A stretch of DNA of 64,000 nucleotides, taken from positions 124,001-188,000 of the forward strand of contig NZ_MTQN01000004.1 in the NCBI RefSeq assembly GCF_001984195.1. Direction: 5' to 3'. This DNA is from Kribbella sp. ALI-6-A. GTDB lineage: Bacteria; Actinomycetota; Actinomycetes; Propionibacteriales; Kribbellaceae. The notes below the pieces were generated by a model. It made no database searches. It had not been told where the DNA came from and worked only from the letters and a program-made list of their open reading frames with translations. Of the stretch, positions 34,254 through 48,763 are shown one piece after another. The first letter of the stretch is position 1. Every line of letters starts with the position of its first letter. The translations under genes were made by a program, and so were the position numbers.

Positions 34254-35558
34254 ATGGAGCAGTTGAAAGCGGCCGCGGCGGGACCGCGGGACGAACAAGC
34301 GGACAAGCAGGTCTCCCAGCTCGTCACCGAGGTGATCGCGAACGTACGTGACCGCGGCGACGCGGCAGTGCGCGAGTACTCTGAGCGCTTCGACGGGTGG
34401 TCGCCGGCGAGTTTCCGCCTCGCCCCGGAGGACGTGGCCAAGATCGTCGCAAGCGTTCCGGAGCAGGCAATCAGCGACATCCTTGCCGTCCAGGCGCGGG
34501 TCCGGACGTTCGCCGAGCACCAACTGGCCTCGCTGCGCGACTTCGAGGTCGAGACCGAACCCGGAGTCCTGCTGGGACAGAAGAATCTACCGGTCGGATC
34601 GGTGGGCGCATACGTACCTGGTGGACGGTATCCGCTCGTCGCCTCGGCGCACATGACGGTCGTCACCGCCAAGGTCGCCGGGGTCGAACGGGTCACGGCC
34701 TGTACGCCACCGATCCGCGGGCAGGTGCCGGCCGCAACTGTCGCGGCGCTGCACCTCGCCGGTGCCGACGAGATTCTGCTGCTCGGGGGCACTCAGGCCG
34801 TCGCGGCGATGGCACTCGGCACCGAGACGATCGGCAAGGTCGACATGCTCGCCGGTCCGGGCAACGCGTTCGTGGCCGAGGCCAAGCGCCAGCTGTATGG
34901 AACCGTCGGGATCGACCTGTTCGCCGGTCCGACCGAGGTCCTCGTCATCGCCGACGAGGACGCCGACCCGTTGGTCGTCGCCGTTGATCTGCTCAGCCAG
35001 GCCGAGCACGGACCGGACTCGCCCGCCGTCCTGATCACGACGTCGGCCGCGCTCGGACGCCGAGTGCTGGAACTGATCGACGACCTTCTGCCCGACATGC
35101 CGACTGCCGACTACGCCGAACCAGCCTGGCGTGACCATGGCGAGGTCATCGTCGTAGGCACCCTCGCCGAGGCGTACACGCTCGCGAACCGGTACGCGTC
35201 GGAGCACGTCCAGGTCCTCACGGCGAACCCGCGAGAGGCGCTGGACCGTATGTCGAACTACGGCGCGCTGTTCCTCGGCGAGGGAACTTGCGTCTCATAC
35301 GGCGACAAGGTCATCGGCACGAACCACACGCTACCCACCCGCGGTGCCGCGAACTACACCGGCGGGCTCTGGGTAGGCAAGTACCTCAAAACAGTGACCT
35401 ACCAGGAGGTGACCTCCCCCGCCGCGAGCGCGGCGCTCGGAGAGTTGTGCGGGAGGGCCGCCCGGGTCGAGTTCTTCGAGGGCCACGCACGATCCGGCGA
35501 TATTCGGGCCCATAAGTTCGGCGAGGCCGAGCTCCTGTGGGCCCCCGCGGACCGATGA
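34254..35558 (+). CDS. Histidinol dehydrogenase-like zinc alcohol dehydrogenase
   Basis: This 434-residue protein is clearly in the HisD family, which oxidises an alcohol through an aldehyde to an acid with two NAD. Zinc ligands (SQAEHGPDSP), the catalytic Glu-His pair (YASEHVQ) and the GDKVIGTNHTLPTRGAAN block are intact. It sits in an aromatic-catabolism operon with no other his gene, and its stop overlaps the SDR start (ATGA). HisD homologues recruited to catabolism are known, for example for dihydroxypropanesulfonate. I infer oxidation of a hydroxymethyl or side-chain alcohol of the imported compound. GGGAG precedes ATG. Confidence 0.87.
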   Translation: MEQLKAAAAGPRDEQADKQVSQLVTEVIANVRDRGDAAVREYSERFDGWSPASFRLAPEDVAKIVASVPEQAISDILAVQARVRTFAEHQLASLRDFEVETEPGVLLGQKNLPVGSVGAYVPGGRYPLVASAHMTVVTAKVAGVERVTACTPPIRGQVPAATVAALHLAGADEILLLGGTQAVAAMALGTETIGKVDMLAGPGNAFVAEAKRQLYGTVGIDLFAGPTEVLVIADEDADPLVVAVDLLSQAEHGPDSPAVLITTSAALGRRVLELIDDLLPDMPTADYAEPAWRDHGEVIVVGTLAEAYTLANRYASEHVQVLTANPREALDRMSNYGALFLGEGTCVSYGDKVIGTNHTLPTRGAANYTGGLWVGKYLKTVTYQEVTSPAASAALGELCGRAARVEFFEGHARSGDIRAHKFGEAELLWAPADR

Positions 35559-36331
35559 CGACCGTGATGGAGGGTCCGCTCGTCGGGCGGACCGGCCTCG
35601 TCACCGGCGCCGGCAACGGACTCGGCCGCGCGATCGCGCTGCTGCTGTCTCGGTATGGCGTCCGCGTGCTGCTGGTCGGCCGAGACGAGGCGAAGCTCGA
35701 AGCCGTCAAGGCGGAGATCGGTCCGAGCGCCAGGGTAGAGACCTGCGACACGTCATCTCCCAGCGCTGTCGAGGAACTGCGGAACACTCTGGCCGACGAG
35801 GACGTCTCGATCCTGGTCAACAACGCCGGGGTCCCGGGACCGGTGGCCGACCTCACGCAGGTCACGGCCGAGGAGTGGGACTACGTCTTCGCCGTCAACG
35901 TGCGAGGCGTCTACCTGATGTGCCGGGCGTTCCTGCCGGCCATGATCGAGCGCGCCGCCGGCGACATCATCAACGTGGCGTCGGTGAGCGGCAAGCGCCC
36001 GCTGGCCCGGCGTACGCCGTACGCGGCGTCGAAGATGGCCGTCATCGGCCTGACCACCACCTTGGCGCATGAGGTCGGTGCGTACGGAATCGCGGTGAAC
36101 ACCCTGTCGCCGGGCCCTGTCGCCGGCCCCCGGATGGAACGGATCCTCGCGCTGGACGCCGGGCGCCGCGGAACCTCGGTCGCGGATGCGGAAAGCGACT
36201 TCGTGTCCCGATCCGCGATCAAGCGGATGGTGACCGAGGCGGAGGTGGCCCAAGCCGCGCTGGCGATGCTGCACATGCCCGGCTTGTGCGGCGCCGACGT
36301 GGATCTGTCCGGAGGGATGGTGGCGAGATGA
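35555..36331 (+). CDS. SDR-family oxidoreductase of the aromatic operon
   Basis: This 258-residue short-chain dehydrogenase has NAD(P)-binding TGAGNGLG near the N-terminus, the NNAG motif, catalytic Ser in NVASVSG and the Tyr-Lys pair in YAASK. The start overlaps the HisD-like stop (ATGA), and its own stop overlaps the monooxygenase start (ATGA), so the three are translationally coupled. It should interconvert an alcohol and a ketone or aldehyde, perhaps on the same side chain as the HisD-like enzyme, or dehydrogenate a dihydrodiol. Substrate unknown. Confidence 0.9.
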   Translation: MTTVMEGPLVGRTGLVTGAGNGLGRAIALLLSRYGVRVLLVGRDEAKLEAVKAEIGPSARVETCDTSSPSAVEELRNTLADEDVSILVNNAGVPGPVADLTQVTAEEWDYVFAVNVRGVYLMCRAFLPAMIERAAGDIINVASVSGKRPLARRTPYAASKMAVIGLTTTLAHEVGAYGIAVNTLSPGPVAGPRMERILALDAGRRGTSVADAESDFVSRSAIKRMVTEAEVAQAALAMLHMPGLCGADVDLSGGMVAR

Positions 36332-37860
36332 GCGGTTCGGCAACCGAGCAGCGGAACGGACGAAGCATGACGAACACCAAGAGCAATAGGTATGACGTCG
36401 TCGTGGTCGGCGCCGGACCGGCGGGCCTGGTGCTGGCGGCACTGTTGGACCGCAGGGGGGTCTCGGCCGCGTTGATCGATCCGAACAAGATCGTCTGCCA
36501 GCACCCGCGGGCGTCCCATCTCGACGACGAGGTGATGCGCATCCTGCAGACGATCGGTATGGACCGCGCCGAGCCGACCTACATGCGCCAGACCGGTTTC
36601 GACTTCTATGCCCCCGACGGCAGGTGCTTTCTCAAGTGGGACATCCGGCCGGGCGAGACCGAGCAGGGATGGCAGCCGGCGTACCAGTTCTTCCAGCCGG
36701 ACTTCGAGGCGGAGCTGCGCGGCCGGCTCGCGGCGAACGAGCACACCGATCTGCTGATCGGGTGGGAGGCGACCGCCATCACCGAGTCGGCTGATGAGGT
36801 CCAGATCTCGATCAAGCGGCGCGCAGACGGTGCGGAGCGCGGACTGCGGGCCGGATATGTGGTCGGTTGCGACGGATCGCGGTCGATGGTCCGCGGCCTG
36901 GTGATGAAGGATCTGCTCGACCTCAACGGAACCAAACAGTCGGTCATCATCGACGTGAACCATCTCAGTCCTGCCAAGGATCTGCCCCGGACCGCACTGT
37001 CGATCATGTGCGGTCCGGTGCCGATCACCCACGTTCCGATCGTCGAGCCGATGTCGCGGTTCCAGTTCATGCTCGGACCGGACGAGGACCCGCTGCCCTA
37101 CGAAGATCCGACCACGATCTATCGGCTGCTGGACCGCTTCGTCGAGCCTGACTCGTACCGGATCATGCGTACCGACGTGTACGAGTGGAACGCGCACCTG
37201 GTGCAGGGCTGGCGGTCCGGACGGCTGATGATCGCCGGTGACGCAGCGCACCTGATGCCGCCGATGCTCGGGCAAGGAATGTGCTCGGGGCTGCGGGACG
37301 TGAGCAACCTGGCGTGGAAGCTTGCTCTGGTCGTGAGTGGGCGGGCGCCGGCCACGCTGCTGGACACCTACGAGTCGGAGCGGTCACCGCACGTCCGTGC
37401 GATGATCGCCGAGTCGGCCCGGCAGGCCAATCTCGTCGCCGCGATCAGCCGCGGCGAGGACCAGGCCGGCTCCGAGACCTCGGTCGACCGGTCACGCAAG
37501 CCGTTGGGGCCAGGGCTGTCGGATCACAGATTCAAGGCATCCGGAACGTTGGCCCCGCAACCGCGCGACCTGACCGGCGCCCGGATGGACGACCTGGTGG
37601 GATACGAGTTCGCTGTCGTCGTGTCCGCGGATCTCGGCCAAAGCCTGGCTGAGACACTCAAGCGGAGGTTCGCGCGGATGAGCCTGCCAATGGTTGTCGT
37701 CGAGGACCCCAGAACGACGGCCTGGCTGAGCTCGTACGGCGTCGACGCGGCGATCCTGCGCCCGGATCGCTACGTGTACGCCGCGACCAAGGGCCCCGAA
37801 GAGCTGGCCGCAGCGGCGCAGGCGCTGGAGGCAGCACTCGCATCGGAGGTCTTCGTGTGA
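36328..37860 (+). CDS. FAD-dependent aromatic monooxygenase (MhpA/PheA-like)
   Basis: This 510-residue class A flavoprotein monooxygenase has the FAD loop VVVGAGPAGLVLAALLDRRG, the NAD(P)H/FAD motif GCDGSRSMVRG and the second FAD motif MIAGDAAHLMPPMLGQGM. A thioredoxin-like C-terminal domain (about residues 400-510) is typical of phenol and 3-(3-hydroxyphenyl)propionate hydroxylases. It adds a ring hydroxyl ortho to a phenol, preparing a catechol for cleavage. The ATG at 36328 is the coupled start; another in-frame ATG lies 13 codons in. It overlaps the lactonase gene by GTGA. Confidence 0.9.
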   Translation: MSGSATEQRNGRSMTNTKSNRYDVVVVGAGPAGLVLAALLDRRGVSAALIDPNKIVCQHPRASHLDDEVMRILQTIGMDRAEPTYMRQTGFDFYAPDGRCFLKWDIRPGETEQGWQPAYQFFQPDFEAELRGRLAANEHTDLLIGWEATAITESADEVQISIKRRADGAERGLRAGYVVGCDGSRSMVRGLVMKDLLDLNGTKQSVIIDVNHLSPAKDLPRTALSIMCGPVPITHVPIVEPMSRFQFMLGPDEDPLPYEDPTTIYRLLDRFVEPDSYRIMRTDVYEWNAHLVQGWRSGRLMIAGDAAHLMPPMLGQGMCSGLRDVSNLAWKLALVVSGRAPATLLDTYESERSPHVRAMIAESARQANLVAAISRGEDQAGSETSVDRSRKPLGPGLSDHRFKASGTLAPQPRDLTGARMDDLVGYEFAVVVSADLGQSLAETLKRRFARMSLPMVVVEDPRTTAWLSSYGVDAAILRPDRYVYAATKGPEELAAAAQALEAALASEVFV

Positions 37861-38690
37861 GGACGTTGCTGGAAGGACTTACCTGGGGCGAAGGGCCCCG
37901 CTACGGGAACGATCACCTGGTCGTGTCGGATCCCCACCGGAACACCCTCTGGAGCGACGCGTCGGGCCGATGGGTGCCACACGCGCTGCCGTCGGCCAGC
38001 AACGGTCTCGGCTTCCTGCCGGACGGCAGCCTGATCGCGGCACTCATGGATGAAGTTGCCGTGGGCAAGTGGAACGGCACCCTTTTCGAGCCCTACTGCG
38101 ACCTGTCAAAAGTTGCCTCCGGCCCGCTCGGAGATTTGACCGTGGACGCTGCGGGTGGTCTCTACGTTGACGATGTCGGATACGCCGCCCACCGCGGGGA
38201 GCCGCCGCGGCCGGGTCGCCTGATCTACGTCTCCCCTGGCGGCCGTGACGCGGTGGTGGCCGCCGACAACGTCGAGTTCCCGAACGGCATCTGCCTGGTG
38301 GACAACGGCCGCACGCTGATCGTCGCCGAGACGTGGCGGCAGCGACTGCTCTCCTTCCACATCGTGTGCCCTGGCGTGCTGACGGATCGTCGGGACTATG
38401 CCGTGCTGGGCGCGGCCGTTCCGGCCGTCCGGCCGGACGGGATCTGTCCGGCGAACGGCGGAGGCGTCTGGGTGGCCACGTTGACCGGCCGGTCGGTGTT
38501 GCGCGTGGATCGCCAAGGAGTCAAGGAGATTCTGTTCACCGGCAGTGAGTGTCCGATCGCCGTCTGCGTCGGCGCGGACGGCTCTTTGTTCGCCACGCTG
38601 GCGGATACCAGTGGGCTGCCGTTGATGGAAGCGCTTGCCCTCGACAAGGTCTCGACCAAATTCGTTCAGCTGCCGCACACTGGGAACTGA
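37857..38690 (+). CDS. SMP-30/gluconolactonase family lactonase
   Basis: This 277-residue six-bladed beta-propeller hydrolase has the metal-binding residues in place: Glu in WGEGPRY, Asn in EFPNGIC and Asp in RPDGIC. The family hydrolyses lactones with a divalent metal. Start GTG 37857 overlaps the monooxygenase stop, making a four-gene coupled block. In this context it may open a lactone formed from a ring-fission or side-chain intermediate. The precise substrate is not visible. Confidence 0.88.
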   Translation: MRTLLEGLTWGEGPRYGNDHLVVSDPHRNTLWSDASGRWVPHALPSASNGLGFLPDGSLIAALMDEVAVGKWNGTLFEPYCDLSKVASGPLGDLTVDAAGGLYVDDVGYAAHRGEPPRPGRLIYVSPGGRDAVVAADNVEFPNGICLVDNGRTLIVAETWRQRLLSFHIVCPGVLTDRRDYAVLGAAVPAVRPDGICPANGGGVWVATLTGRSVLRVDRQGVKEILFTGSECPIAVCVGADGSLFATLADTSGLPLMEALALDKVSTKFVQLPHTGN

Positions 38691-38729
38691 TCCTCGACCT
38701 GCCAGGCGGGCGCGAGGGTGGGAGACGCC

Positions 38730-39755
38730 ATGACTGATGAGGCGACAGCAGCCGACGGGGGTGGATTCCTGCATGCCTACGAGCGGTACCGCACCAGCGA
38801 CCCGCTGGAGGCGGCCTCGCTGTCGGCGGCCGTCCTGGCCCCCAACCGGCTGACGCCGTTCAAGGGACCGGAGGTCTTCGAAGCCAGGTGCCGCTTCGTC
38901 AGCTCGCAGTGCGCGTCGCTGATCTACATGCGGTACGGGGCGGAGGTCGTGATCGACCGGCCGGCCGCCAACGACTATGTGGCGATCCTGATCCCCACCG
39001 CGGGATCGCTGCTGCTGCGCCACTGCGGGCGTGAGTACCTCGCCGGAGCCGACGAGTCGCTGGCCGTCACCTCAGCCAGGGATCCGCTGCACATGCAGTG
39101 GAGTCCAGGCGCTTCGGTGCTCGCCGTACGGATCAGCGGGAGCGCGATCGACGACGCTCTCAGCCGGATGCTAGCCGGAGACGTCCCGGGCACGCTCGAG
39201 CTCAACGTCGGTGCGGTGAGTGGCCGGGCTCGCTCCATCATCATGGCGGCGGTCGACCTTTTCGCGTCCACCTACGAGGAAAAATCGCCGGGCTCGCCGA
39301 TGCCGGCGGTGGTCGCGCGCCGCCTCGAGGAGCAGGTGCTGTCCGCGCTCCTGCTCGGTCTGGACCACAACTACCGCAGCAGACTCATCGGGGAGGAGAC
39401 CCGTCCCGGTCGGAGAACCGTCCGGGAGGTGGTCGACCTCGTCTGCGCCGAGACCGACGGTTCCTGGACGGTGCACGAGCTTGCCCGGGCAGTCGGCGTC
39501 ACCGTGCGTGCGCTGGAGCTCGGCTTCCGCAAGGAGCTCGGGAAGACGCCGCGGGAATTCGTGCACGAGATCCGGATGGCCCGCGCACACGACGAGCTGA
39601 TCCGCGCGCTGCCAGGTGACGGAACCTCCGTGACCGACGTCGCCACCAAGTGGGGTTTCGGCCACACCGGCCGGTTCGCGGCTGCGTACCTGCTGAAGTT
39701 CGGGGTGAAGCCGTCGGAGACGTTGCGTTCCAGCGGGACCGAGCCGCTTCGCTAA
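38730..39755 (+). CDS. AraC-family regulator of the aromatic cluster
   Basis: This 341-residue protein has an N-terminal AraC-binding-like sensor domain and a C-terminal double helix-turn-helix (DGSWTVHELARAVGVTVRAL, then FVHEIRMARAHDEL and VTDVATKWGFGHTGRFAAAYLLKFG). The start is ATG 38730, which has GGGAG five bases upstream, and not the GTG 12 bases earlier. It lies between the two halves of the supercluster in the same direction. A 33-bp element starting at its stop recurs downstream of folD and may be its binding site. Probably an activator responding to the aromatic substrate. Confidence 0.87.
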   Translation: MTDEATAADGGGFLHAYERYRTSDPLEAASLSAAVLAPNRLTPFKGPEVFEARCRFVSSQCASLIYMRYGAEVVIDRPAANDYVAILIPTAGSLLLRHCGREYLAGADESLAVTSARDPLHMQWSPGASVLAVRISGSAIDDALSRMLAGDVPGTLELNVGAVSGRARSIIMAAVDLFASTYEEKSPGSPMPAVVARRLEEQVLSALLLGLDHNYRSRLIGEETRPGRRTVREVVDLVCAETDGSWTVHELARAVGVTVRALELGFRKELGKTPREFVHEIRMARAHDELIRALPGDGTSVTDVATKWGFGHTGRFAAAYLLKFGVKPSETLRSSGTEPLR

Positions 39756-39885: not shown

Positions 39886-41244
39886 ATGGCTGCCGAAAAC
39901 CTTCAGCAGAAGATCAACGACGCCGGTGGCGCTGTCGCCATGCTGCGCAGTTCGCAGGCCGGCGCGTACCCGTTCCCGATCCCCCCGCAATACACCACCT
40001 GGCAGGACGAGCAGAAGTCCTGGCACGAGACCGCCGTCGTCTTCGACCAGTCCCACCACATGACCGACGTCTCGTTCGAGGGACCGGATGTCCGCCGCCT
40101 GCTGTCCGACGTCGCCGTTAACAGCTTCAAGACCTTCGGCGCCTCGAAGGCCAAGCAGCTTGTGGTCTGCAACGCCGACGGGCAGTACGTCGGCGACGCG
40201 ATCCTGTTTGGTCTGACCGAGGACAAGGTGAGCATCGTCGGCAGCCCGTCCGCCTCGAACTGGGTCGCCTATCAGGCTGAGGTCGGCGGCTACGACGTCG
40301 CCGTCACCCGGGATGAGCGAACACTGGCCAACGCAGGCGAGCGTCGGCTGTTCCGGTACCAGATCCAAGGACCCCGAGCGCTCGACATCGTCACCGCCGC
40401 GCATGGCGCGGAGCTGCCCCGGATCAAGTTCTTCAACATCGGCACCTTCGATCTTGCCGGGCAGCAGGTTCATGCTCTGAACCACACAATGGTGGGCATT
40501 CCCGGCGAGGAGAAAACCGGACTCGAGATCTGGGGTCCCCGTGAGGGCGGACCTGCCGTACTAGAAGCGATTCTGCGCGCCGGTGAGCAATACGGGCTGC
40601 GGCAGGGCGGTGCCATCGCCTACTCGACGACTGCGCTGGAGTCCGGCTGGCTGGGGCTTCCGGTGCCCGGAATCTATTCCGGCGAGGCGACCAAGGCATA
40701 CCGCGAATGGCTGCCCGCCGACGGGTACGAGGCGAACGCGTCGCTGGGCGGCAGCTTCGACTCCGCGGACATTGCAGACTACGTTCCGACGCCGTTCGAT
40801 CTCGGCTACGGCAACATCGTCAAGTTCGACCACGACTTCATCGGCGCGGACGCCCTGCGCCGGCTGAGCCAGGAACCGCAGCGGCGCAAGGTGTGGCTGC
40901 GCTGGAACGCCGACGACGTGACCCGCATCCTCGGCGACAGCCTGCACAAATCTGAGACCGAGCGTCCGAAGTACCTGCAAATCCCGTACGGCGTCTACGC
41001 CACCTTCCAGTACGACGCCGTTCTCAACGGTGCCGCGACGATCGGCATCTCGAACCGGACCGGCTACACCGTGAACGTCGGCGGCTGGTCGTCGCTGGCC
41101 ATGGTCGACGAGGCCCACGCCGTCGACGGCACCGAGGTCACCGTGGTCTGGGGCGACCCGGCTGGTGCGCGGCTGCGTCCCACGGTCGAGACACACGCCT
41201 GTGTTGAGGTGCGTGCGACCGTCAGAACCAGGCCGCTCGCGTGA
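39886..41244 (+). CDS. LigM/DesA-like tetrahydrofolate-dependent O-demethylase
   Basis: This 452-residue GcvT-fold protein transfers a methyl group from substrate to tetrahydrofolate. It aligns by eye with LigM/DesA along its length: AGAYPFPIPPQY, AVVFDQSHHMTDV, SKAKQLVVCNADGQYVGDAI, FRYQIQGPRALDIV, LEIWGPREGG, LPADGYEANASLGGSF and GNIVKFDHDFIGADALRR. In Sphingobium SYK-6 these enzymes demethylate vanillate, 3-O-methylgallate and syringate to 5-methyl-THF. The ATG at 39886 has GGAGGG seven bases upstream; an ATG at 39862 lacks one. It overlaps folD (GTGA), and MetF and PurU follow. A methoxyaromatic acid is the likely substrate, though an N- or S-methyl compound is possible. Confidence 0.87.
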   Translation: MAAENLQQKINDAGGAVAMLRSSQAGAYPFPIPPQYTTWQDEQKSWHETAVVFDQSHHMTDVSFEGPDVRRLLSDVAVNSFKTFGASKAKQLVVCNADGQYVGDAILFGLTEDKVSIVGSPSASNWVAYQAEVGGYDVAVTRDERTLANAGERRLFRYQIQGPRALDIVTAAHGAELPRIKFFNIGTFDLAGQQVHALNHTMVGIPGEEKTGLEIWGPREGGPAVLEAILRAGEQYGLRQGGAIAYSTTALESGWLGLPVPGIYSGEATKAYREWLPADGYEANASLGGSFDSADIADYVPTPFDLGYGNIVKFDHDFIGADALRRLSQEPQRRKVWLRWNADDVTRILGDSLHKSETERPKYLQIPYGVYATFQYDAVLNGAATIGISNRTGYTVNVGGWSSLAMVDEAHAVDGTEVTVVWGDPAGARLRPTVETHACVEVRATVRTRPLA

Positions 41245-42092
41245 CGGCTGAACTCCTGGACGGCGCCGCCGTCGCCCGCAAGATCCTGGCCGGTGTCACC
41301 GAGCGCGCGGCTGACTTCGCCGCCGCGCACGGCAGGGCTCCTTGCTTAGTCACCGTTCTGGTCGGCGACGACCCGGCGTCTCACACCTACGTTCGGATGA
41401 AGCACCGCAGGTGTCAGCAGGCCGGCATCAGGTCCCGGGGCGTCGTTCTGGCGGCCGACACGTCGACGGAGGCACTGGTCGGCGTGGTCGAGGAGCTGTC
41501 GGCCGACGGCTCCATCGACGGCATCCTGCTCCAGCATCCGGTGCCGGCCCCGATCGACGAGTCGCAAGCGTTCGAGGCGATCGACCCGGCCAAGGACGTC
41601 GACGGCGTGACGAGGGCCAGCTTCGCGGCGATGAGCCTGGATCCGGCGCCCGCGTTCGTCTCGTGCACACCGGGAGGAATCCTCCGGCTGCTGGACGAGT
41701 ACGCCGTACCGATCGAGGGCCGGCACGCCGTCGTGGTCGGCCGCAGTCCGATCCTGGGCAAGCCGGTGGGAATGCTGTTGCTGGCCCGGCACGCGACCGT
41801 GACGTACTGCCACTCACGGACCCGGGACCTCGCCGACCAGGTGGCCCGCGCCGACATCGTCGTTGCGGCCGTGGGCAGTCCCCGGGTGATCGCCGGGTCG
41901 TGGATCAAACCGGGAGCTGTCGTGCTGGACGCCGGCTACAACGACGGCAACGTCGGAGACGTGGACTTCGAGTCTGCGCTCGGCCGGGCGGCGATGCTCA
42001 CCCCGGTCCCCGGCGGCGTCGGTCCGATGACGATCGCCGTCCTGCTCGACCAGACGGTGCGTTCTGCCCAGCTGCGGGCGGGCGCTTCGTGA
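41241..42092 (+). CDS. folD: Bifunctional methylene-THF dehydrogenase/cyclohydrolase
   Basis: This 283-residue enzyme oxidises 5,10-methylene-THF and hydrolyses the product to 10-formyl-THF. Catalytic Lys lies in TYVRMKHRRC, and the ILLQHPVP, DPAKDVDG, VGRSPILGKPVGML and PGGVGPMT motifs are complete. GTG 41241 overlaps the demethylase stop, showing a dedicated link. Here it should process methyl groups removed by the demethylase after MetF oxidation, with PurU finishing the path. It may be a second, pathway-specific FolD beside a housekeeping copy elsewhere. Confidence 0.95.
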   Translation: MTAELLDGAAVARKILAGVTERAADFAAAHGRAPCLVTVLVGDDPASHTYVRMKHRRCQQAGIRSRGVVLAADTSTEALVGVVEELSADGSIDGILLQHPVPAPIDESQAFEAIDPAKDVDGVTRASFAAMSLDPAPAFVSCTPGGILRLLDEYAVPIEGRHAVVVGRSPILGKPVGMLLLARHATVTYCHSRTRDLADQVARADIVVAAVGSPRVIAGSWIKPGAVVLDAGYNDGNVGDVDFESALGRAAMLTPVPGGVGPMTIAVLLDQTVRSAQLRAGAS

Positions 42093-42124
42093 ACTGGCCA
42101 TCCCCGGTTCGGCTGACGGCTCGG
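42092..42124 (+). repeat. 33-bp intergenic repeat, copy 2
   Basis: This second copy of the element at 39754-39786 begins AACTGGCCATCCCCGGTTCGG directly at the folD stop and lies 100 bases before the YciI gene. Six mismatches separate the copies, three of them adjacent. Confidence 0.55.
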
Positions 42125-42223
42125 GCCCGGGACAACACATCCGTAGCTTCGTGACTCAGGAGCTGTCCGCCGGAGTCGGCGTACGGCTCGTCCGGAACAC
42201 CACCGAATTTCAAGGAGTCCTTG

Positions 42224-42580
42224 ATGGCTGACCAGACCCAGGAGGCGCTCGTGGTCTACGCCTGCTTCACCAACCGGTCGGACGCCTCGATGGAGGAGAT
42301 CCAGAAGATCGTGCCGGCGCACAAGGAGTGGGCAGCGCAGCGGGAGGCGGCCGGCGACATCTTCATCGCCGGACCGTTCCTGGCCGAAGACCTGAGCTAC
42401 GCCGGTGAGGGACTGATCGCCTTCCGGGCGGACAGTCTCGCGCAGGCCGAGAAACTGGCCGCGAGCGACCCGATGCACTCCTCGGGCGTCCGGACGTTCC
42501 ACGTCCGGCCGTGGCGTCTCAACGAAGGCCTGATCCACTACTCGGTCCTGTTGTCGCAGCGCTCGACGACAATCAGCTGA
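42224..42580 (+). CDS. YciI-family protein, first copy
   Basis: This 118-residue protein has the YCII domain, a ferredoxin-like fold with a conserved His near AHKEWAAQREAAGDIF and the AGPFLAED strand. Family members act in small isomerase, dehalogenase-like or dehydrochlorinase reactions in aromatic catabolism, but most are uncharacterised. The ATG has AAGGAG six bases upstream. It starts the second transcription block after the 33-bp repeat and ends eight bases before metF. A second YciI gene follows at 45178. It may handle an unstable ring intermediate. Confidence 0.82.
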   Translation: MADQTQEALVVYACFTNRSDASMEEIQKIVPAHKEWAAQREAAGDIFIAGPFLAEDLSYAGEGLIAFRADSLAQAEKLAASDPMHSSGVRTFHVRPWRLNEGLIHYSVLLSQRSTTIS

Positions 42581-42588
42581 GCGCGATC

Positions 42589-43467
42589 ATGACCACTCAG
42601 CAGCCGTACCCGCGCAGCCGTCCCGCCGCGATGAGCCTGGCCGGGTTGGTCCGCACCGCCACCGTGGAGATCATTCCCCTCAAGGGCGCGGACGCACAGA
42701 TCCAGGCCGCCCCCGCCGATGCGACCGTTACCGTGACCTGCTCGCCGAAGTTCGGCCTCGCCCGCACCCTGGAGTACTGCGCGATCGCTACCCGGTCGAA
42801 CCGACGGGTCGTTCCGCATCTGGCGGCCCGCATGGTCGAGAACCGCGCCGCCCTGCGCGAGTTCGTCGCCCGGATCACCGATCTGGGTGTCACCGACCTC
42901 TACGTGATCGGCGGCGACGGTGACCGGCCGGTCGGCATCTACTCCGAAGCAAGTCAGGTCCTCGAGGATCTCCGTGGGTTGGACCACGGGCTGACGCGGC
43001 TCGGGGTGGGGTGCTATCCCGAGGGTCACCCCACCGTCGACGACGACCGGCTGTGGGAGTCTCTTGCGCGCAAACAGAAGCTGGCGACGTACATGGTGAG
43101 CCAGCTCTGCTTCGACGCGCGGGCGCTGGAGGACTGGCTGCTGCAGGCTCGCGGACGTGGCATCACCCTGCCGCTGCGGGTCGGTGTCGCCGGTCCGCTC
43201 AAGGTCGCCAAACTGGCCGAGCTGTCGCTGCGGATCGGAGTGGGCCAGTCGCTGCGCTACCTGAGCAAGCAACACGGGCTGGTGGGCAACGTCCTGCTCG
43301 GGCGCACCTACGACCCGGAGCCGTTCGTCGATGCCGTCGGAAAGATCGGATCTGCCGACGGCAGCGGGATCGAGGGCCTGCACGTCTTCAGCTTCAACCA
43401 GGTGGCGCAGTACGCGGCCTGGCGCGCCGCCGCTGTTCCGCCTACGGCAGGAGGGCAGGTCTCATGA
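42589..43467 (+). CDS. metF: Methylenetetrahydrofolate reductase (MetF-like)
   Basis: This 292-residue TIM-barrel flavoprotein is of the MTHFR family. Visible blocks are VTVTCSPKFGLARTLEY, RRVVPHLAARMVENRAAL, VTDLYVIGGDGDRPVGIY and LPLRVGVAGPLKVAKL. It is somewhat divergent from biosynthetic MetF. In a demethylation cluster it should run in reverse, oxidising 5-methyl-THF to 5,10-methylene-THF, as MetF does for LigM in Sphingobium. ATG 42589 is the first good start after the YciI stop. It overlaps purU (ATGA). Confidence 0.88.
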   Translation: MTTQQPYPRSRPAAMSLAGLVRTATVEIIPLKGADAQIQAAPADATVTVTCSPKFGLARTLEYCAIATRSNRRVVPHLAARMVENRAALREFVARITDLGVTDLYVIGGDGDRPVGIYSEASQVLEDLRGLDHGLTRLGVGCYPEGHPTVDDDRLWESLARKQKLATYMVSQLCFDARALEDWLLQARGRGITLPLRVGVAGPLKVAKLAELSLRIGVGQSLRYLSKQHGLVGNVLLGRTYDPEPFVDAVGKIGSADGSGIEGLHVFSFNQVAQYAAWRAAAVPPTAGGQVS

Positions 43468-44318
43468 ACCAACTGGTACTGACCTTCAGCTGCCCCGACC
43501 GGCCCGGTATCGTACACGCCGTCAGCCGCTTCCTGGACGAACAGGGTTGCAACATCGCGGAATGCCACCAGTTCGGTGACCGCTCCTCGAACCGCTTCCA
43601 CATGCGGGTCGCGTTCCACGACGCCGCGGGCGGTGACCTCGACCCGGAGCGGTTCGAGGCGCGGTTCGCGAACCTGGCGCGGGAGCTCTACATCTCCTGG
43701 CGGCTCGTGGACACCGCCCGGCCGCAACGCGTCGTGCTGATGGTCAGCAAGTACGGCCACTGCCTGAACGACTTGCTTTTCCGGGTGGGCGTCGGCCGGC
43801 TCAACGCCGAGGTGGCGGCGGTTGTGTCGAACCACCCCGACCTTGAACCGATGGTCGCGGCGGCCGGTGTCCCGTTCTTCCACGTTCCGGTGACCGCGGC
43901 GACCAAACCGGAGGCTGAAGCGGAGCTGCTGCGGCTGGTCGACGAACTGGAGGTCGACCTCGTCGTCCTGGCCCGGTACATGCAAATCCTGTCCGCCGAC
44001 CTGTGCGCCAAGCTCGAGGGCAAGGCGATCAACATCCACCACTCGATGCTGCCCAGCTTCAAGGGTGCCCGTCCCTACCACCAGGCCTTCGACCGCGGCG
44101 TGAAGCTGGTCGGTGCGACCGCCCACTACGTCACGACGGACCTGGACGAAGGTCCGATCATCGAGCAGGAGGTCCAGCGGGTGGACCACTCGCTGGACGC
44201 CGCCGAGGTGGCCGCGCTGGGGCGTGACGCCGAGTGCCTGGCGCTGGCTCGCGCGGTCCAGTGGCACCTGGAGAACCGAGTGATTCTGGACGGCATCCGT
44301 ACGGTCGTGTTCCGATGA
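43464..44318 (+). CDS. purU: Formyltetrahydrofolate deformylase
   Basis: This 284-residue enzyme splits 10-formyl-THF into formate and THF. An N-terminal ACT domain (about residues 1-80, TFSCPDRPGIVHAVSRFL) is followed by a formyltransferase-fold domain with INIHHSMLPSFKGARPYHQA and GATAHYVTTDLDEGPII, which contain the catalytic Asn, His and Asp. ATG 43464 overlaps metF, and its stop overlaps folP (ATGA). Here it frees THF for another round of demethylation and releases the carbon as formate. Confidence 0.95.
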   Translation: MNQLVLTFSCPDRPGIVHAVSRFLDEQGCNIAECHQFGDRSSNRFHMRVAFHDAAGGDLDPERFEARFANLARELYISWRLVDTARPQRVVLMVSKYGHCLNDLLFRVGVGRLNAEVAAVVSNHPDLEPMVAAAGVPFFHVPVTAATKPEAEAELLRLVDELEVDLVVLARYMQILSADLCAKLEGKAINIHHSMLPSFKGARPYHQAFDRGVKLVGATAHYVTTDLDEGPIIEQEVQRVDHSLDAAEVAALGRDAECLALARAVQWHLENRVILDGIRTVVFR

Positions 44319-45196
44319 CCGTCACCGCTCGACCGACGCCGAACGGGATCACCGCCCGCCCGTTGGTGATCGGCATACTCAACGTGACCCCAGACTCCTT
44401 TTCGGACGGCGGGCTCTACCCCACGGCCGACGCTGCCACAGAGCGGGGATTGCAGCTGGCACGCGCTGGCGCCGACTGGGTGGATGTCGGCGGAGAGTCG
44501 ACCCGCCCTGGCGCTCGGAGAGTCAGCGCCGCCGAGGAGCTGCGACGCGTTGTACCGGTGGTTGCCGCACTGGCCGGACAAGATGTCCGGGTCTCGGTGG
44601 ACACCCTGCGAGCAGAAGTCGCCGAAGCTGCGGTCGCCGCTGGAGCGATCGTCGTCAACGATGTCAGCGGTGGACGGGCGGATCCGAGGATGCTGCCCGC
44701 CGTCGCGGATCTCGGCGTCGTCTACGTCGTCAGCCACTGGCGGGCGCACTCCGTGGTGATGGACCGGCACGCGACCTACGAGGACGTCGTCGCCGACGTC
44801 GTGCGCGAGCTGAACCATCAGTTGCATGAGGCAATCAAAGCGGGCATCGACGCATCCCGGCTGCTGGCCGATCCCGGTCTCGGGTTCGCCAAGACCGGTT
44901 CCCAGAGCTGGCAGCTGCTCCGCCGGATCGACGCCGTCCAGGCGCTCGGATTCCCGGTCCTAGTAGGGGCGAGCCGCAAACGCCTGCTGCGGGAGATCCT
45001 CGATCACGCCGGTCAGCGGGATCTCGATCTGGCCGGCGCGGTGCTGTCCTCCCTGCTGGCCACCCGCGGAATCTCCGCGCTGCGGGTCCACGACGTTGCG
45101 GCGACCGTGACGGCGCTGCAGGTGGTGCGCCGGTTCACCGGATGCGACGACAAGCGATCACCGATCAAGGAGGAATCGTGGCCGAACCACACATGA
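44315..45196 (+). CDS. folP: Dihydropteroate synthase
   Basis: This 293-residue TIM barrel condenses pterin pyrophosphate with p-aminobenzoate in folate synthesis. Motifs are complete: GILNVTPDSFSDGG, VDVGGESTRPGA, VNDVSGGRADPRM, ADPGLGFAKTGSQSW and VGASRKR. It is placed inside a catabolic operon by ATGA overlap with purU, which is unusual and suggests extra folate supply when demethylation is induced. It probably duplicates a housekeeping folP elsewhere. The next gene's start lies 19 bases inside its end. Confidence 0.94.
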   Translation: MTVTARPTPNGITARPLVIGILNVTPDSFSDGGLYPTADAATERGLQLARAGADWVDVGGESTRPGARRVSAAEELRRVVPVVAALAGQDVRVSVDTLRAEVAEAAVAAGAIVVNDVSGGRADPRMLPAVADLGVVYVVSHWRAHSVVMDRHATYEDVVADVVRELNHQLHEAIKAGIDASRLLADPGLGFAKTGSQSWQLLRRIDAVQALGFPVLVGASRKRLLREILDHAGQRDLDLAGAVLSSLLATRGISALRVHDVAATVTALQVVRRFTGCDDKRSPIKEESWPNHT

Positions 45197-45579
45197 AATG
45201 GTCCGAGCAGGCCGAGATCGCCCACACGCACGGCCTGCTGGGCAAGACGTTGTATGTCATCTCGTCCACCCCCCGCCGTGGGCTCCAGCCGATTCTCGAC
45301 GTACTCGACGAGCACATCGCGTACCAGACCCAGCTCGAACGCGACGGCGTCATGTTCGCCGCCGGCCCAGTGGCCAACGACGACCGGACCGAGTGGCTGG
45401 GCGAAGGCCTGTTCATGTACCGGGCGTCGTCGGCCGAGCACGCGCGTGAGCTCGCGGAGGCCGATCCCATGCACAAGTGCGGCGCTCGCACCTTCACGAT
45501 CCGCGAGTGGATGCTCAACGAGGGGACCTTCACGATCCAGGTCTTCTACTCCACCGGTGACCGCCCCCGGATCCAGTGA
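45178..45579 (+). CDS. YciI-family protein, second copy
   Basis: This 133-residue protein is related in pattern to the gene at 42224: LDEHIAYQTQLERDGVMFAAGP, then AEADPMHKCGARTFTIREWMLNEG, matching DPMHSSGVRTFHVRPWRLNEG in the first copy. GTG 45178 has AAGGAGG six bases upstream and lies within the end of folP. It carries a longer N-terminus than the first copy. The two may form a heteromer or act on successive intermediates. Function unknown. Confidence 0.83.
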   Translation: MAEPHMKWSEQAEIAHTHGLLGKTLYVISSTPRRGLQPILDVLDEHIAYQTQLERDGVMFAAGPVANDDRTEWLGEGLFMYRASSAEHARELAEADPMHKCGARTFTIREWMLNEGTFTIQVFYSTGDRPRIQ

Positions 45580-45607: not shown

Positions 45608-46174
45608 ATGACGCACCATCTTCAGATCGTCATCGGCAGCACCCGGCCCGGCCGCGTCGGGCCGGCCGTCGCGCACTGGTTCGCCCGGACCGCGCGCGAG
45701 CACGGCGGTTTCGACATCGAGCTCGTCGACCTCGCCGACCTGGACCTGCCGCTGCTCGACGAGCCGAACCATCCGCGGTTGCAGGAGTACCGCAACGCCC
45801 ACACGAAGATGTGGAGCGACACGGTGCAACGCGCCGACGCATTCGTCTTCGTCCATCCGGAGTACAACTTCGGCGTCAACGCGGCGCTCAAGAACGCCCT
45901 CGACTACCTGGTGCACGAATGGCGTGACAAGACCGTCGGGCTGGTCAGCTACGGCGGTGTGTCCGGCGGCCTGCGCGCGGCGCAGATGCTCAAGCAGAGC
46001 TTCTCGGCACTCGGCCTGTTCGCGGTCCCGGCAGCGGTCACCGTGCCGTTCGTGGCGGAACATCTGAACGTTCTCGGCGAGTTCGAGCCGACGCCGATCA
46101 TGCAGGACTCGGCCCAGCTGATGCTCGACGAACTGGTCCGACTGACCGGCGCACTGGCGCCCCTGCGCGCGTGA
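45608..46174 (+). CDS. NADPH-dependent FMN reductase family protein
   Basis: This 188-residue flavodoxin-fold protein has the phosphate-binding GSTRPGRVGPAVAHWF loop near the N-terminus and the PEYNFGVNAALKNALDYL block. Family members reduce FMN, quinones or azo compounds with NADPH. In this operon it may keep quinones formed from hydroquinone or catechol intermediates reduced, or feed a partner flavoenzyme. GGAGG precedes ATG 45608. Confidence 0.88.
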   Translation: MTHHLQIVIGSTRPGRVGPAVAHWFARTAREHGGFDIELVDLADLDLPLLDEPNHPRLQEYRNAHTKMWSDTVQRADAFVFVHPEYNFGVNAALKNALDYLVHEWRDKTVGLVSYGGVSGGLRAAQMLKQSFSALGLFAVPAAVTVPFVAEHLNVLGEFEPTPIMQDSAQLMLDELVRLTGALAPLRA

Positions 46175-46206: not shown

Positions 46207-47064
46207 ATGAAACTCGCGAACGTGAGTGGCCATGCAGTCCTTGTGACCGGCGACCGGGCTGGGATCAACGTGCACCAAGCGTCCGGTGGCGAGTTCGGGC
46301 CCGGCCCACACGAGGTCTATCAGCGGTGGGCAGAGTTCGAGCGCTGGGTCGCGGCGGCAGGCGACCTCGGAGGGGAGGTCGCCTTCGAGCCCGAGGACCT
46401 CGGCTGTCCGTCGCCCTCCCCGCGGCAAGTAGTTGCCGTCGGCCTCAACTATTCGGCGCACGCCGCCGAGGCCGGCTTCGCCGTACCGGAGCGGCTGCCA
46501 CCCACCTTCACGAAGTTCCCCTCCAGCCTGGCCGGCCCTTACTGCGAGGTCGAGCTGCCGCCTGGCGGACGGACGGACTGGGAGGTCGAGCTGGTCGTCG
46601 TCGTCGGCCGGTCCGCGTCACGGGTGGGCGAGCACGAGGCCTGGGACCACGTGGCGGGACTGAGCGTCGGACAGGACCTGTCGGAACGGATCTCCCAACT
46701 CGACGGTCCTGCACCTCAGTTCAGTCTGGGCAAGTCCTATCCCCGGTTCGGACCGGTCGGGCCATGGCTGGTGACTCCGGACGAGCTCGGCGACCGCGAC
46801 AACCTGGAACTGTCCTGCGCCGTGAACGGCGAGACCGTCCAAGCGGCCTCGACGAAGGAAATGATTTTCCCGGTGCCCGCGCTGATCGCGCAGCTAAGCG
46901 ACGTCATCACGCTGTTCCCCGGAGACCTGATCTTCACCGGGACCCCGGCCGGTGTCGGCCAGGGACGGCAACCGCAGAGGTTCCTGGCCGACGGTGACGT
47001 CCTGGTCAGCCGGATCGAGGGCATCGGCGAGATCAGGCAGACCTTCACGGCGGGAGGCCGGTGA
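46207..47064 (+). CDS. Fumarylacetoacetate hydrolase-family protein
   Basis: This 285-residue metal-dependent enzyme of the FAH superfamily has VAVGLNYSAHAAEAG, KFPSSLAGPY, the metal-binding WEVELVVVVGR with two Glu, SVGQDLSER and FTGTPAGVGQG. Members hydrolyse, hydrate or decarboxylate ring-cleavage products in homoprotocatechuate, gentisate and meta-cleavage routes. ATG 46207 has AAGGAG upstream and is preferred to an overlapping GTG at 46171. It lies two bases before the extradiol dioxygenase gene and probably acts directly on that enzyme's product. Confidence 0.9.
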   Translation: MKLANVSGHAVLVTGDRAGINVHQASGGEFGPGPHEVYQRWAEFERWVAAAGDLGGEVAFEPEDLGCPSPSPRQVVAVGLNYSAHAAEAGFAVPERLPPTFTKFPSSLAGPYCEVELPPGGRTDWEVELVVVVGRSASRVGEHEAWDHVAGLSVGQDLSERISQLDGPAPQFSLGKSYPRFGPVGPWLVTPDELGDRDNLELSCAVNGETVQAASTKEMIFPVPALIAQLSDVITLFPGDLIFTGTPAGVGQGRQPQRFLADGDVLVSRIEGIGEIRQTFTAGGR

Positions 47065-47065
47065 A

Positions 47066-47983
47066 ATGAGTCTGCATCGACTGACGCACGTCAAGATCGG
47101 CGTACCGAACGTGGGCGAGACGGTCGACTACTACGAAGAGTTCGGGCTGAGCCGTCGCGCCGACGGTGTACTGGCGACCAGCGACGGCGGTGATCAGCTC
47201 AAGGTGACGCACGCGCCGACCAGACGGCTCGTCGAACTGGGCGTGGGTGCCGACGACGAGGACGACTTGGCTCGCATCGCGGTGTCCCTCGGCCAACTGG
47301 GGGTGCCCGCGTCCCGCACCGGGGGCGTTCTGCGGGCCAGGGAGCCGGCGGCCGGGTTCGGCGTCGCCCTGACGGTGACCGATCGCCTGTCGCAACACCC
47401 GCAACCGCCCACGCCGTACAACGGGCCGGGGCGGATCGAGAGATACGGCCGGGCGCCGGGTGTTGTGCGGGAGACCCCGATCCGTCCGCGCAAGCTCGGC
47501 CACGCGGTGATCGGAACACGGAACTTGGAGGCCACCAAGGCGTTTTTCGTCGATGGTCTCGGCTTCAAGGTGAGCGACTACATCGCAGACCAGGGAGTGT
47601 TCTTGCGCTGCTCCGCGGACCACCACAACGTGCTGGCCATGCAGTCGAAGATCAATTACCTGCACCACACGAGCTGGCAGGTCGACGACATCGACGATAT
47701 CGGGCGGGGCGCGATGTCGATGCTCGAGGGCAACCCGGAGCGGCACGTCTGGGGCCTGGGCCGGCACCACGCGGGCTCCAACTTTTTCTGGTACCTGAAG
47801 GACCCGGCCGGCAACTTCTCGGAGTACTACGCGGACATGGACTGCATCCCCGAGGACGAGATCTGGGAACCGGAGGTGCTTCACGGCGCCCGGGGACTGT
47901 TCAATTGGGGCCCCCCACCGCCCCCATCCTTCCTGGAACCCGAGGACCTGGCCGCCCTGATGATCGGCGCGCATTCCCGCTGA
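47066..47983 (+). CDS. Type I extradiol ring-cleavage dioxygenase
   Basis: This 305-residue protein has two VOC (bleomycin-resistance/extradiol) modules. The C-terminal module carries the full 2-His-1-Glu iron site: His146 in KLGHAVIGT, His200 or His201 in LHHTSWQV and Glu253 in NFSEYYADM, with a Tyr right after. Positions match those of BphC-type 2,3-dihydroxybiphenyl dioxygenases. It should cleave a catechol next to the diol (meta-cleavage). It is the last gene of the supercluster, directly after the FAH-family enzyme. The start is ATG 47066 after GGGAGG. Confidence 0.9.
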   Translation: MSLHRLTHVKIGVPNVGETVDYYEEFGLSRRADGVLATSDGGDQLKVTHAPTRRLVELGVGADDEDDLARIAVSLGQLGVPASRTGGVLRAREPAAGFGVALTVTDRLSQHPQPPTPYNGPGRIERYGRAPGVVRETPIRPRKLGHAVIGTRNLEATKAFFVDGLGFKVSDYIADQGVFLRCSADHHNVLAMQSKINYLHHTSWQVDDIDDIGRGAMSMLEGNPERHVWGLGRHHAGSNFFWYLKDPAGNFSEYYADMDCIPEDEIWEPEVLHGARGLFNWGPPPPPSFLEPEDLAALMIGAHSR

Positions 47984-48763
47984 CGTACAACGCCGCCCTG
48001 CGCTCCCCACCCCCGGCAGAGACACCCAGCGTGCCTGGAGCGCAGCGACACCCGCTGTGGCAGCCGGCCGCCGCCACGCGCGGCAGCCTTAAGGCCGGGG
48101 GAAATATGACCGCTGTCCATCAGCGGCGCCATCTCTCACCTCTCAAAGGCGGAGGTCGTACGCGTTCTTGGCAGCCTCTGACGAATGACAGCAACTGCGG
48201 GACGCGAATCAGCGGGCTCGGGGCCGGGTCCCTGGCAGCGCACCGCATCGAGGCTCAGGGAGACATCGCATCTGATCCTGAGACTTTGCGCGTTCTCGGC
48301 GTCCTCTGTCGCCTCTCTTTGCCGATCGATCGCCTGTAGCGGTGCCGCGGAGTCCTCCCGCGACTCCTCGCTCCAGGTCCTGTGGTACCCGGTGGAGCGT
48401 CTCCGCTTTGTTGTCGAGCCAGAACTCGCAGCGTCCTCCGCTCCGAGCCGGTTCCCCTTCCTGCGGCCCTGCTTGAGACGTATCCAGGGCGACGGGATTT
48501 CGCGGGTGCGGAGCATTTTGCGCCGTCATCCTGGTGGAGTTTTCGCCTTGCTGCGCTGATTCCGGGGGCGGTCATGGGCCTGGACGACCCATCATGGCGA
48601 CACGACCGCCATCCCAGTGTGAGCGCTAGAGGTCCGGAGTCGAGTGAGGTTCTCGCCAGCCGTTGAACATCCGTCACCCTTCGCGGGCATTTATCCACAG
48701 GCGACTTTTGCCGATCGCCCAGAGTTCGTACGGTTGCGGAACCACGTCGACAGAGAGGGCAGG
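47984..48763. other. Non-coding stretch before the integrase
   Basis: No ORF here looks protein-like on either strand, and base composition is less GC-biased by codon position than in the genes. A single TTATCCACA sequence, a DnaA-box match, lies at 48691-48699. No tRNA that could be the attachment site was recognised. Confidence 0.45.

Follow-up and report, generated by a model that had tools for sequence, protein, structure and literature searches.

The locus examined here raises the question of why a cluster built around a tetrahydrofolate (THF)-dependent demethylase carries a methylenetetrahydrofolate reductase (MTHFR, here MetF) of its own, although a canonical MetF exists elsewhere in the same genome. 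The window, by which we mean the whole 64,000-nucleotide stretch of Kribbella sp. ALI-6-A that was analysed, contains at 39886-44318 five genes, all on the + strand: the demethylase gene (39886-41244), folD (41241-42092), a gene for a YciI-like small protein (42224-42580), metF (42589-43467) and purU (43464-44318), the end of which is overlapped by folP (44315-45196). An earlier note on this DNA had read the presence of metF as a sign of methyl transfer rather than oxidative demethylation. Comparison with related proteins and loci led us to a similar answer: it is highly likely that the cluster acts on a methoxylated aromatic compound, O-demethylating it by methyl transfer to THF, that the 5-methyl-THF is oxidised to formate via MetF, FolD and PurU, and that the ring of the product is then opened.

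In such a pathway, the demethylase would convert a methoxyaromatic compound and THF to a phenol and 5-methyl-THF, which the cluster MetF, working in the oxidising direction, would turn into 5,10-methylene-THF. FolD, a methylene-THF dehydrogenase / methenyl-THF cyclohydrolase, would carry methylene-THF on to 10-formyl-THF, and PurU, a formyl-THF deformylase, would release formate and regenerate THF, while FolP, a dihydropteroate synthase of folate synthesis, would raise the folate supply. Candidates for the ring opening of the demethylated product are encoded nearby: a monooxygenase, an extradiol-type dioxygenase and a fumarylacetoacetate-hydrolase (FAH) family protein. The route from 5-methyl-THF through methylene-THF and formyl-THF to formate is that of the earlier note, and the family, MetF and neighbourhood comparisons below support it; the premise of that note, that MetF is needed only if 5-methyl-THF is made, is itself an interpretation.

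The window proteins were scanned with NCBIfam models and with Pfam (at E 0.001), and these matches, together with those to solved structures, confirmed that demethylase, folD, metF and purU stand together on one strand. The order given earlier, with metF between folD and purU, holds as well, except that the YciI-like gene (NCBIfam, Pfam YCII), which had gone unmentioned, also lies between folD and metF; folP after purU was likewise absent from that account. Start and stop codons overlap at the demethylase/folD, metF/purU and purU/folP junctions, and the demethylase-folD-metF-purU-folP set therefore probably forms a single transcript. PurU scored 323.1 bits with TIGR00655 (cut-off 285.95), which no other protein of the genome exceeds, and FolP scored 278 bits with the dihydropteroate synthase model (cut-off 162.6). 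Since FolD and FolP are each one of three copies in the genome, PurU is the step that the cluster adds outright.

The demethylase, a 452-residue protein of the GCV_T fold, has as its nearest solved relatives two LigM sequences, presumably from SYK-6, at 2e-119 (over residues 2-450) and 4e-119; the next solved match is an aminomethyltransferase at 5e-10. Among the NCBIfam models, it scored 499.8 bits with DesA, 471.3 with LigM, 74.9 with GcvT and 41.8 with the dimethylsulfoniopropionate (DMSP) demethylase. The first two scores are under the respective equivalog cut-offs of 800 and 580, and the protein is therefore a member of the family but neither of the named enzymes. Judged by its sequence, it is in the DesA/LigM family of THF-dependent O-demethylases, rather than among GcvT, DmdA or the flavin adenine dinucleotide (FAD) fusions. 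At the above threshold, Pfam gave GCV_T alone for this protein and showed neither an iron domain nor a flavin domain, such as the FAD domain that oxidative demethylases carry. Tyr246 is invariant in 13/13 aligned relatives and aligns with the catalytic tyrosine of LigM, which we take to be Tyr247; across the family, this column holds Tyr in 44 of the 46 rows, window included, and lacks it in the outliers L062_3757 and L078. A methyl-transferring tyrosine is named, unnumbered, in a passage of PMC9296663. An AlphaFold prediction for the demethylase was rejected and left unused, with a predicted local distance difference test (pLDDT) score of 67.9, a predicted template-modelling (pTM) score of 0.62 and residues 243-301 under 50.

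The MetF of the cluster is not the canonical biosynthetic enzyme, as it scored 43.4 bits with TIGR00676 against an equivalog cut-off of 293.7; a canonical MetF over this cut-off is encoded on another contig. The genome has three MTHFR-family matches, the canonical one at 324.7 bits, a distant one (L002) at 51.9 and that of the window at 24.9, and the Pfam MTHFR match of the window protein was bare (25.4 bits, cut-off 24). Its best solved relative was 7xg9 at 1.5e-28, with Thermus MTHFR at 0.00095; 7xg9 and 7xlf are titled as the SYK-6 MTHFR and its CH3-THF complex. When a model built from four sequences (pLDDT 76.1, pTM 0.78) was compared by Foldseek, 7xg9/7xlf took ranks 1-3 (TM 0.69-0.72) and Thermus rank 4 (TM 0.63), and the 50 best folds among the matches listed were MTHFR throughout. 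At the positions of Glu27, Asp110 and Gln172, the genome's canonical MetF has identical residues in the alignment, and to these three we assign, as an assumption, the catalytic roles of the MTHFR Glu, Asp and Gln; the Foldseek titles include an E. coli Glu28Gln mutant and an Asp120Ala mutant, taken as the same positions as Glu27 and Asp110. The modelled fold and these aligned residues indicate that the protein belongs to the MTHFR superfamily. A tree of 90 MTHFRs set 16 canonical enzymes apart from 74 others including the SYK-6 enzyme (S6MTHFR) with a support of 0.817, and grouped the window MetF with L010-L013 at 0.997.

A flavin-free, mycobacterial-type identity was rejected for the window MetF, which is 19% identical to L002, a homologue that we guess to be of the mycobacterial type, and is nearest to SYK-6 MTHFR. 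L002 (252 residues) lies directly upstream of genes that, read by eye, resemble NADH-dehydrogenase subunits. No gene naming the electron acceptor of the window MetF was seen in the cluster neighbourhood, and an FMN_red-family gene was dropped as the acceptor partner because it had no match in L010-L022 at 1e-5.

The demethylase is rare, being found in 3/245 genomes of the order at E 1e-20, the other two in other families, and in 15/396 genomes of the phylum (DesA model at 1e-60). The collection scan gave 13 demethylase loci, the nearest from Catenulispora and Streptomyces (75-77% identity), followed by Actinacidiphila (62%). To count neighbours, we used 47 distinct demethylase-family open reading frames (ORFs) of at least 340 residues from the 13 scan loci, 31 further stretches and the window, including three outliers (L062_3757, L078, L079) and one partial gene (L085), and sought MetF, PurU, FolD and FolP within 9 kb. 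MetF was present at 13/47, and at all 13 of these PurU was also there on the same strand; PurU without MetF occurred once (1/47; L015, Verrucomicrobia). FolP was near 3/47, and FolD was rejected as an obligate part of the module because it was near just 12/47. In G255, G285, G331 and G353, some 11-13 kb separate a MetF-family gene from a demethylase, which puts it past the 9 kb limit. In the demethylase tree, the MetF-PurU carriers are scattered among several branches, and the MetF family occurs in 11 of the 15 demethylase genomes versus 69 of the 381 others (Fisher p 8.5e-6; overlap counted by hand).

The profile of the window-type MetF (alignment A1) matched 87 places in 80/396 genomes at 1e-15, and the family is therefore not confined to O-demethylation; the notion that it is special to this process was rejected, as many of the places have DmdA-like or MttB neighbours. 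Sixty of the 87 loci were analysed (L125-L184), the rest being 6 already among the demethylase loci and 21 left out. A GCV_T protein of under 560 residues adjoins MetF on the same strand in 28 of the 60, and all 27 that were scanned (the L153 fragments were omitted) matched the DMSP-demethylase model as well as others of the GCV_T type. This model ranked best for the first of the 27, with 342 bits against a cut-off of 410, and a profile of the MetF-adjacent GCV_T proteins gave 3tfh, which we take to be DmdA, as its best solved match. Since the one score shown is under the cut-off, the DmdA-like proteins near this MetF might take methyl groups from betaine or another donor. Counted over the whole stretches, DmdA-like proteins occur in 29 of the 60 loci, MttB in 10 (each accompanied by the corrinoid activator RACo) and either of them in 39, along with formyl-THF synthetase in 30, an FAD-GcvT fusion in 25 and PurU in 3. 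Four loci lack any partner sought (L161, L165, L182, L183); two of them, L165 and L183, correspond to the copies of G255 and G285 that are separated from a demethylase by about 13 kb. As a control, 16 canonical MetF stretches of the same median length, from 15/60 genomes matching at 1e-60, had such partners in 0/16 cases, versus 39/60 with DmdA-like proteins or MttB (Fisher p 1.2e-6).

Taken together, methyl transfer is the best reading because the demethylase keeps the LigM catalytic tyrosine with no flavin or iron domain found, because its MetF appears to fall with SYK-6 MTHFR, reported to work in the oxidising direction, and apart from the canonical MetF, because MetF and PurU recur together beside demethylases at every MetF-bearing locus, and because methyl-to-THF systems lie near this MetF family (39/60) and near none of the 16 canonical ones; we also count in its favour that the cluster carries a MetF besides the canonical one, the genome-level overlap of demethylase and MetF family, the gene sets of the R. 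opacus plasmids, the lack of MetF in the pAO1 stretch and the enzymology reported for SYK-6. Several observations weigh against it. The positions of LigM Arg122, which we take to be the carboxylate ligand, and Arg245 hold Ser and Ile in the window demethylase, and its substrate may therefore not be a LigM-like benzoate and may differ from vanillate; Arg122 is kept in 24 of the 46 family rows. The window MetF is 29% identical to SYK-6 MTHFR over the 234 positions of the SYK-6 part compared, and in the tree it stands outside the SYK-6-like subgroup and is united with 68 others at a node with a support of 0.721. Among the demethylase ORFs, 26/47 are without any of the four folate genes in the 9 kb range, a part of these ORFs being on short contigs or in stretches cut off at a contig edge. 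For the 11 genomes with both proteins, the MetF is in some cases at a DmdA-like locus away from the demethylase (both G342 MetF loci, L144 and L174). The 60 MetF loci are no random sample, having been picked for their score and their place on the contig, and the Fisher p-values ignore shared ancestry.

The methyl transfer could be as proposed and yet start from a non-aromatic donor, an N- or S-methyl compound, which we regard as unlikely. The frequent DmdA-like (29/60) and MttB (10/60) partners of the same MetF family are in line with such a donor, as is the window's HisD-family enzyme, which is closest to sulfopropanediol dehydrogenase. However, the window demethylase matches LigM at 2e-119, and GcvT and trimethylamine N-oxide demethylase at 5e-10 or weaker; moreover, its neighbours include an aromatic monooxygenase, an extradiol-type dioxygenase, an FAH protein and an aromatic-acid-type transporter. 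Of these, the dioxygenase and FAH are shared with L010-L012, and the monooxygenase with L010 and L011. Quite unlikely, in our estimate, is a demethylenase of the BrdA/SesA type, in which the GCV_T protein would open a methylenedioxy ring to give 5,10-methylene-THF directly, with MetF a bystander or diverting methylene-THF to methionine. Passages of PMC5547118 describe BrdA and SesA as homologues of LigM/DesA that depend on THF, and a table for BrdA there gives their annotation as vanillate/3-O-methylgallate O-demethylase. Such an enzyme would create no need for MetF and PurU to travel together, yet they do so at 13/13 MetF-bearing loci (BrdA and SesA being judged without their sequences); the window MetF is also SYK-6-related, not canonical, in a genome that already has a canonical one.

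An oxidative demethylation to methylene-THF, with MetF reducing as usual and supplying 5-methyl-THF for methionine, appears very improbable. It would agree with the reversibility of MTHFR in vitro, stated in part of PMC13001107, and with the FAD-GcvT fusions of the oxidative type near the MetF family in 25/60 loci. No FAD domain was found by Pfam in the window protein, though, and the plasmid pAO1, which is the oxidative case, is without MetF in its 14.8 kb stretch; in addition, a purU adjoining metF would presumably drain the methionine supply, not fill it.

Folate-synthesis genes recur in such clusters. The folP gene is found by THF-dependent demethylases (window 44315-45196, L013 11405-12340, L084 7394-8305, L201 and L204), and pabB lies near demethylases, along with folP, on Rhodococcus plasmids (L201, L204). 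The presence of FolP and pabB beside demethylase clusters, in these few cases, suggests that folate supply limits such pathways and that the THF pool may be boosted for catabolism. Two demethylases about 15 kb apart in G182 (C1 2155300-2191000; L083, L084) have MetF-PurU with one and FolD-FolP with the other, and jointly hold the folate set of the window.

The flanking catabolic-type genes, from 32.9 to 48.0 kb, are likewise all on the + strand. Upstream of the demethylase are an MFS transporter (32901-34190; nearest model an aromatic acid/H+ symporter, under cut-off), a HisD-family dehydrogenase (34254-35558), an SDR oxidoreductase (35537-36331), an MhpA-like FAD-dependent aromatic monooxygenase (36328-37860), an SMP-30/gluconolactonase-like protein (37857-38690; Pfam) and an AraC-type regulator (38718-39755; nearest model AndR, under cut-off). 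Downstream of folP are a second YciI-like protein (45142-45579), an FMN_red (NADPH-dependent FMN reductase) family protein (45608-46174; Pfam), the FAH-family protein (46207-47064) and a VOC-family, type I extradiol-dioxygenase-like protein (47066-47983). The start codons of the SDR, MhpA-like and second YciI-like genes are uncertain. Genes for the regulator, demethylase, MetF, PurU, FAH, VOC, SMP-30 and YciI proteins are common to L010-L012; a match to the MhpA-like gene was obtained for L010 and L011 (Catenulispora, Streptomyces) but not for L012. At 1e-5, none of L010-L022 had a match to the HisD-family, MFS or FMN_red gene, and these three may therefore not belong to the pathway. The HisD-family enzyme matched sulfopropanediol 3-dehydrogenase, its closest solved relative, at 3e-117 versus 7e-81 for histidinol dehydrogenase, and is therefore probably a catabolic dehydrogenase rather than HisD. 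Both YciI-like proteins lie amid folate genes, and YciI-like matches are also found in the catabolic half of L010-L012.

Downstream of the cluster, a tyrosine recombinase gene (48644-50002) lies within a stretch of lower GC content (0.638), and the demethylase is missing from the other genomes of the genus that were sampled (order-level search, 245 genomes), which together suggest that the cluster is a mobile island. ARAGORN gave no tRNA genes in the window.

Beyond this locus, we see about an even chance that the window MetF subfamily is a dedicated 5-methyl-THF oxidase, an exit common to unrelated methyl-entry systems in Actinomycetota, namely the DesA/LigM-like (ending in PurU or formyl-THF synthetase), the DmdA-like and the corrinoid MttB systems, with relatives in haloarchaea and rhizobia. 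If true, the subfamily would be a genome marker that separates methyl transfer from oxidative demethylation and would flag unrecognised THF-dependent demethylases. As a general 5-methyl-THF oxidase, it would allow methyl-transferring demethylases to be identified from their neighbourhood alone, and the destination of its electrons would be directly testable. We found no report of this wider pattern among the papers listed in literature searches on the gene set of the cluster, which gave PMC9296663, and on DmdA or MttB with MTHFR; Yu 2025 (Commun Biol) may cover part of it, and the authors of the SYK-6 MTHFR work noted similar gene sets in many bacteria (PMC12585457).

Some neighbourhoods stand as single examples outside the counts. 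The Rhodococcus opacus 1CP plasmid pR1CP1 carries pabB, MetF, demethylase, PurU and FolP with transposases around, and a plasmid of R. opacus DSM 44186 carries pabB, demethylase, MetF, PurU and FolD by class III extradiol dioxygenase genes; the same stretch also holds fdhD and folP. A second DesA/LigM-family protein, annotated as hypothetical, is encoded on the opposite strand near the first on the latter plasmid (L204 2309-3934). MetF adjoins the demethylase in Rhizobium WSM2304, where PurU and FolD were not found in 15 kb, and in Haloarcula marismortui MetF is near a GcvT-annotated protein and dihydrofolate reductase. The window thus offers a compact actinomycete example of what appears to be folate-based O-demethylation, with a demethylation step predicted to work without oxygen, a kind of set that mobilizable Rhodococcus plasmids carry as well; such demethylation bears on lignin and herbicide breakdown.

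Among known systems, pAO1 provides the contrast drawn earlier with Arthrobacter, and it stands: this plasmid has purU, an FAD-dependent oxidoreductase gene, presumably mabO of nicotine catabolism, and folD, and the MetF profiles match nothing in the 14.8 kb stretch. In pAO1, as is proposed here, a THF-bound one-carbon unit is converted to formate by FolD and PurU, but an FAD-dependent oxidoreductase takes the place of the lone methyltransferase. In Rhizorhabdus dicambivorans Ndbn-20, the gene for the dicamba demethylase Dmt is reportedly followed downstream by a metF, folD-like and purU set. Dmt transfers the methyl group of a methoxybenzoate to THF, giving 5-methyl-THF (in passages of PMC9404685), and resembles the window system in this THF-dependent transfer while differing in its substrate. 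On a plasmid of Methylobacterium extorquens CM4, folD, metF2, purU and folC2 accompany the cmu chloromethane genes, and the strain cannot use chloromethane without metF and purU, as parts of PMC3621897 state. Here, too, an extra metF, folD, purU and folate gene are carried with a methyl-to-THF system, but the methyl group enters via a corrinoid protein, not a GCV_T demethylase.

The closest parallel is the lignin degrader Sphingobium lignivorans SYK-6, for which the principle of methyl transfer is already published and so is not new here. LigM and DesA transfer methyl groups to THF, yielding 5-methyl-THF, and ligM-metF-ligH form an operon (both from portions of PMC6888825). S6MTHFR was reported to oxidise 5-CH3-THF, the reverse of the usual reaction, working with LigM (PMC12585457), and a passage of PMC13001107 adds that FAD is reduced. 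Both systems pair a GCV_T-type O-demethylase with an MTHFR, and the closest solved relatives of the window proteins are LigM and SYK-6 MTHFR; they differ in that the operon has a formyl-THF synthetase (LigH) where the window has FolD, PurU and FolP, and in that the window MetF is outside the SYK-6-like subgroup and shares its genome with a canonical MetF. The actinobacterial setting has been reported as well: the genome MB2.64 (Solirubrobacterales) has a DesA-like aminomethyltransferase (69.5% to SYK-6 DesA), metF and ligH, which the passages of PMC9296663 concerned state for the genome and not as neighbours. It resembles the window in combining an actinobacterial DesA-like protein with metF, and differs in having LigH, not PurU. 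The window locus is thus most likely one more instance of a known pathway, with PurU in the place of LigH, and the lead beyond that pathway is a MetF subfamily that may be common to several methyl-entry systems.

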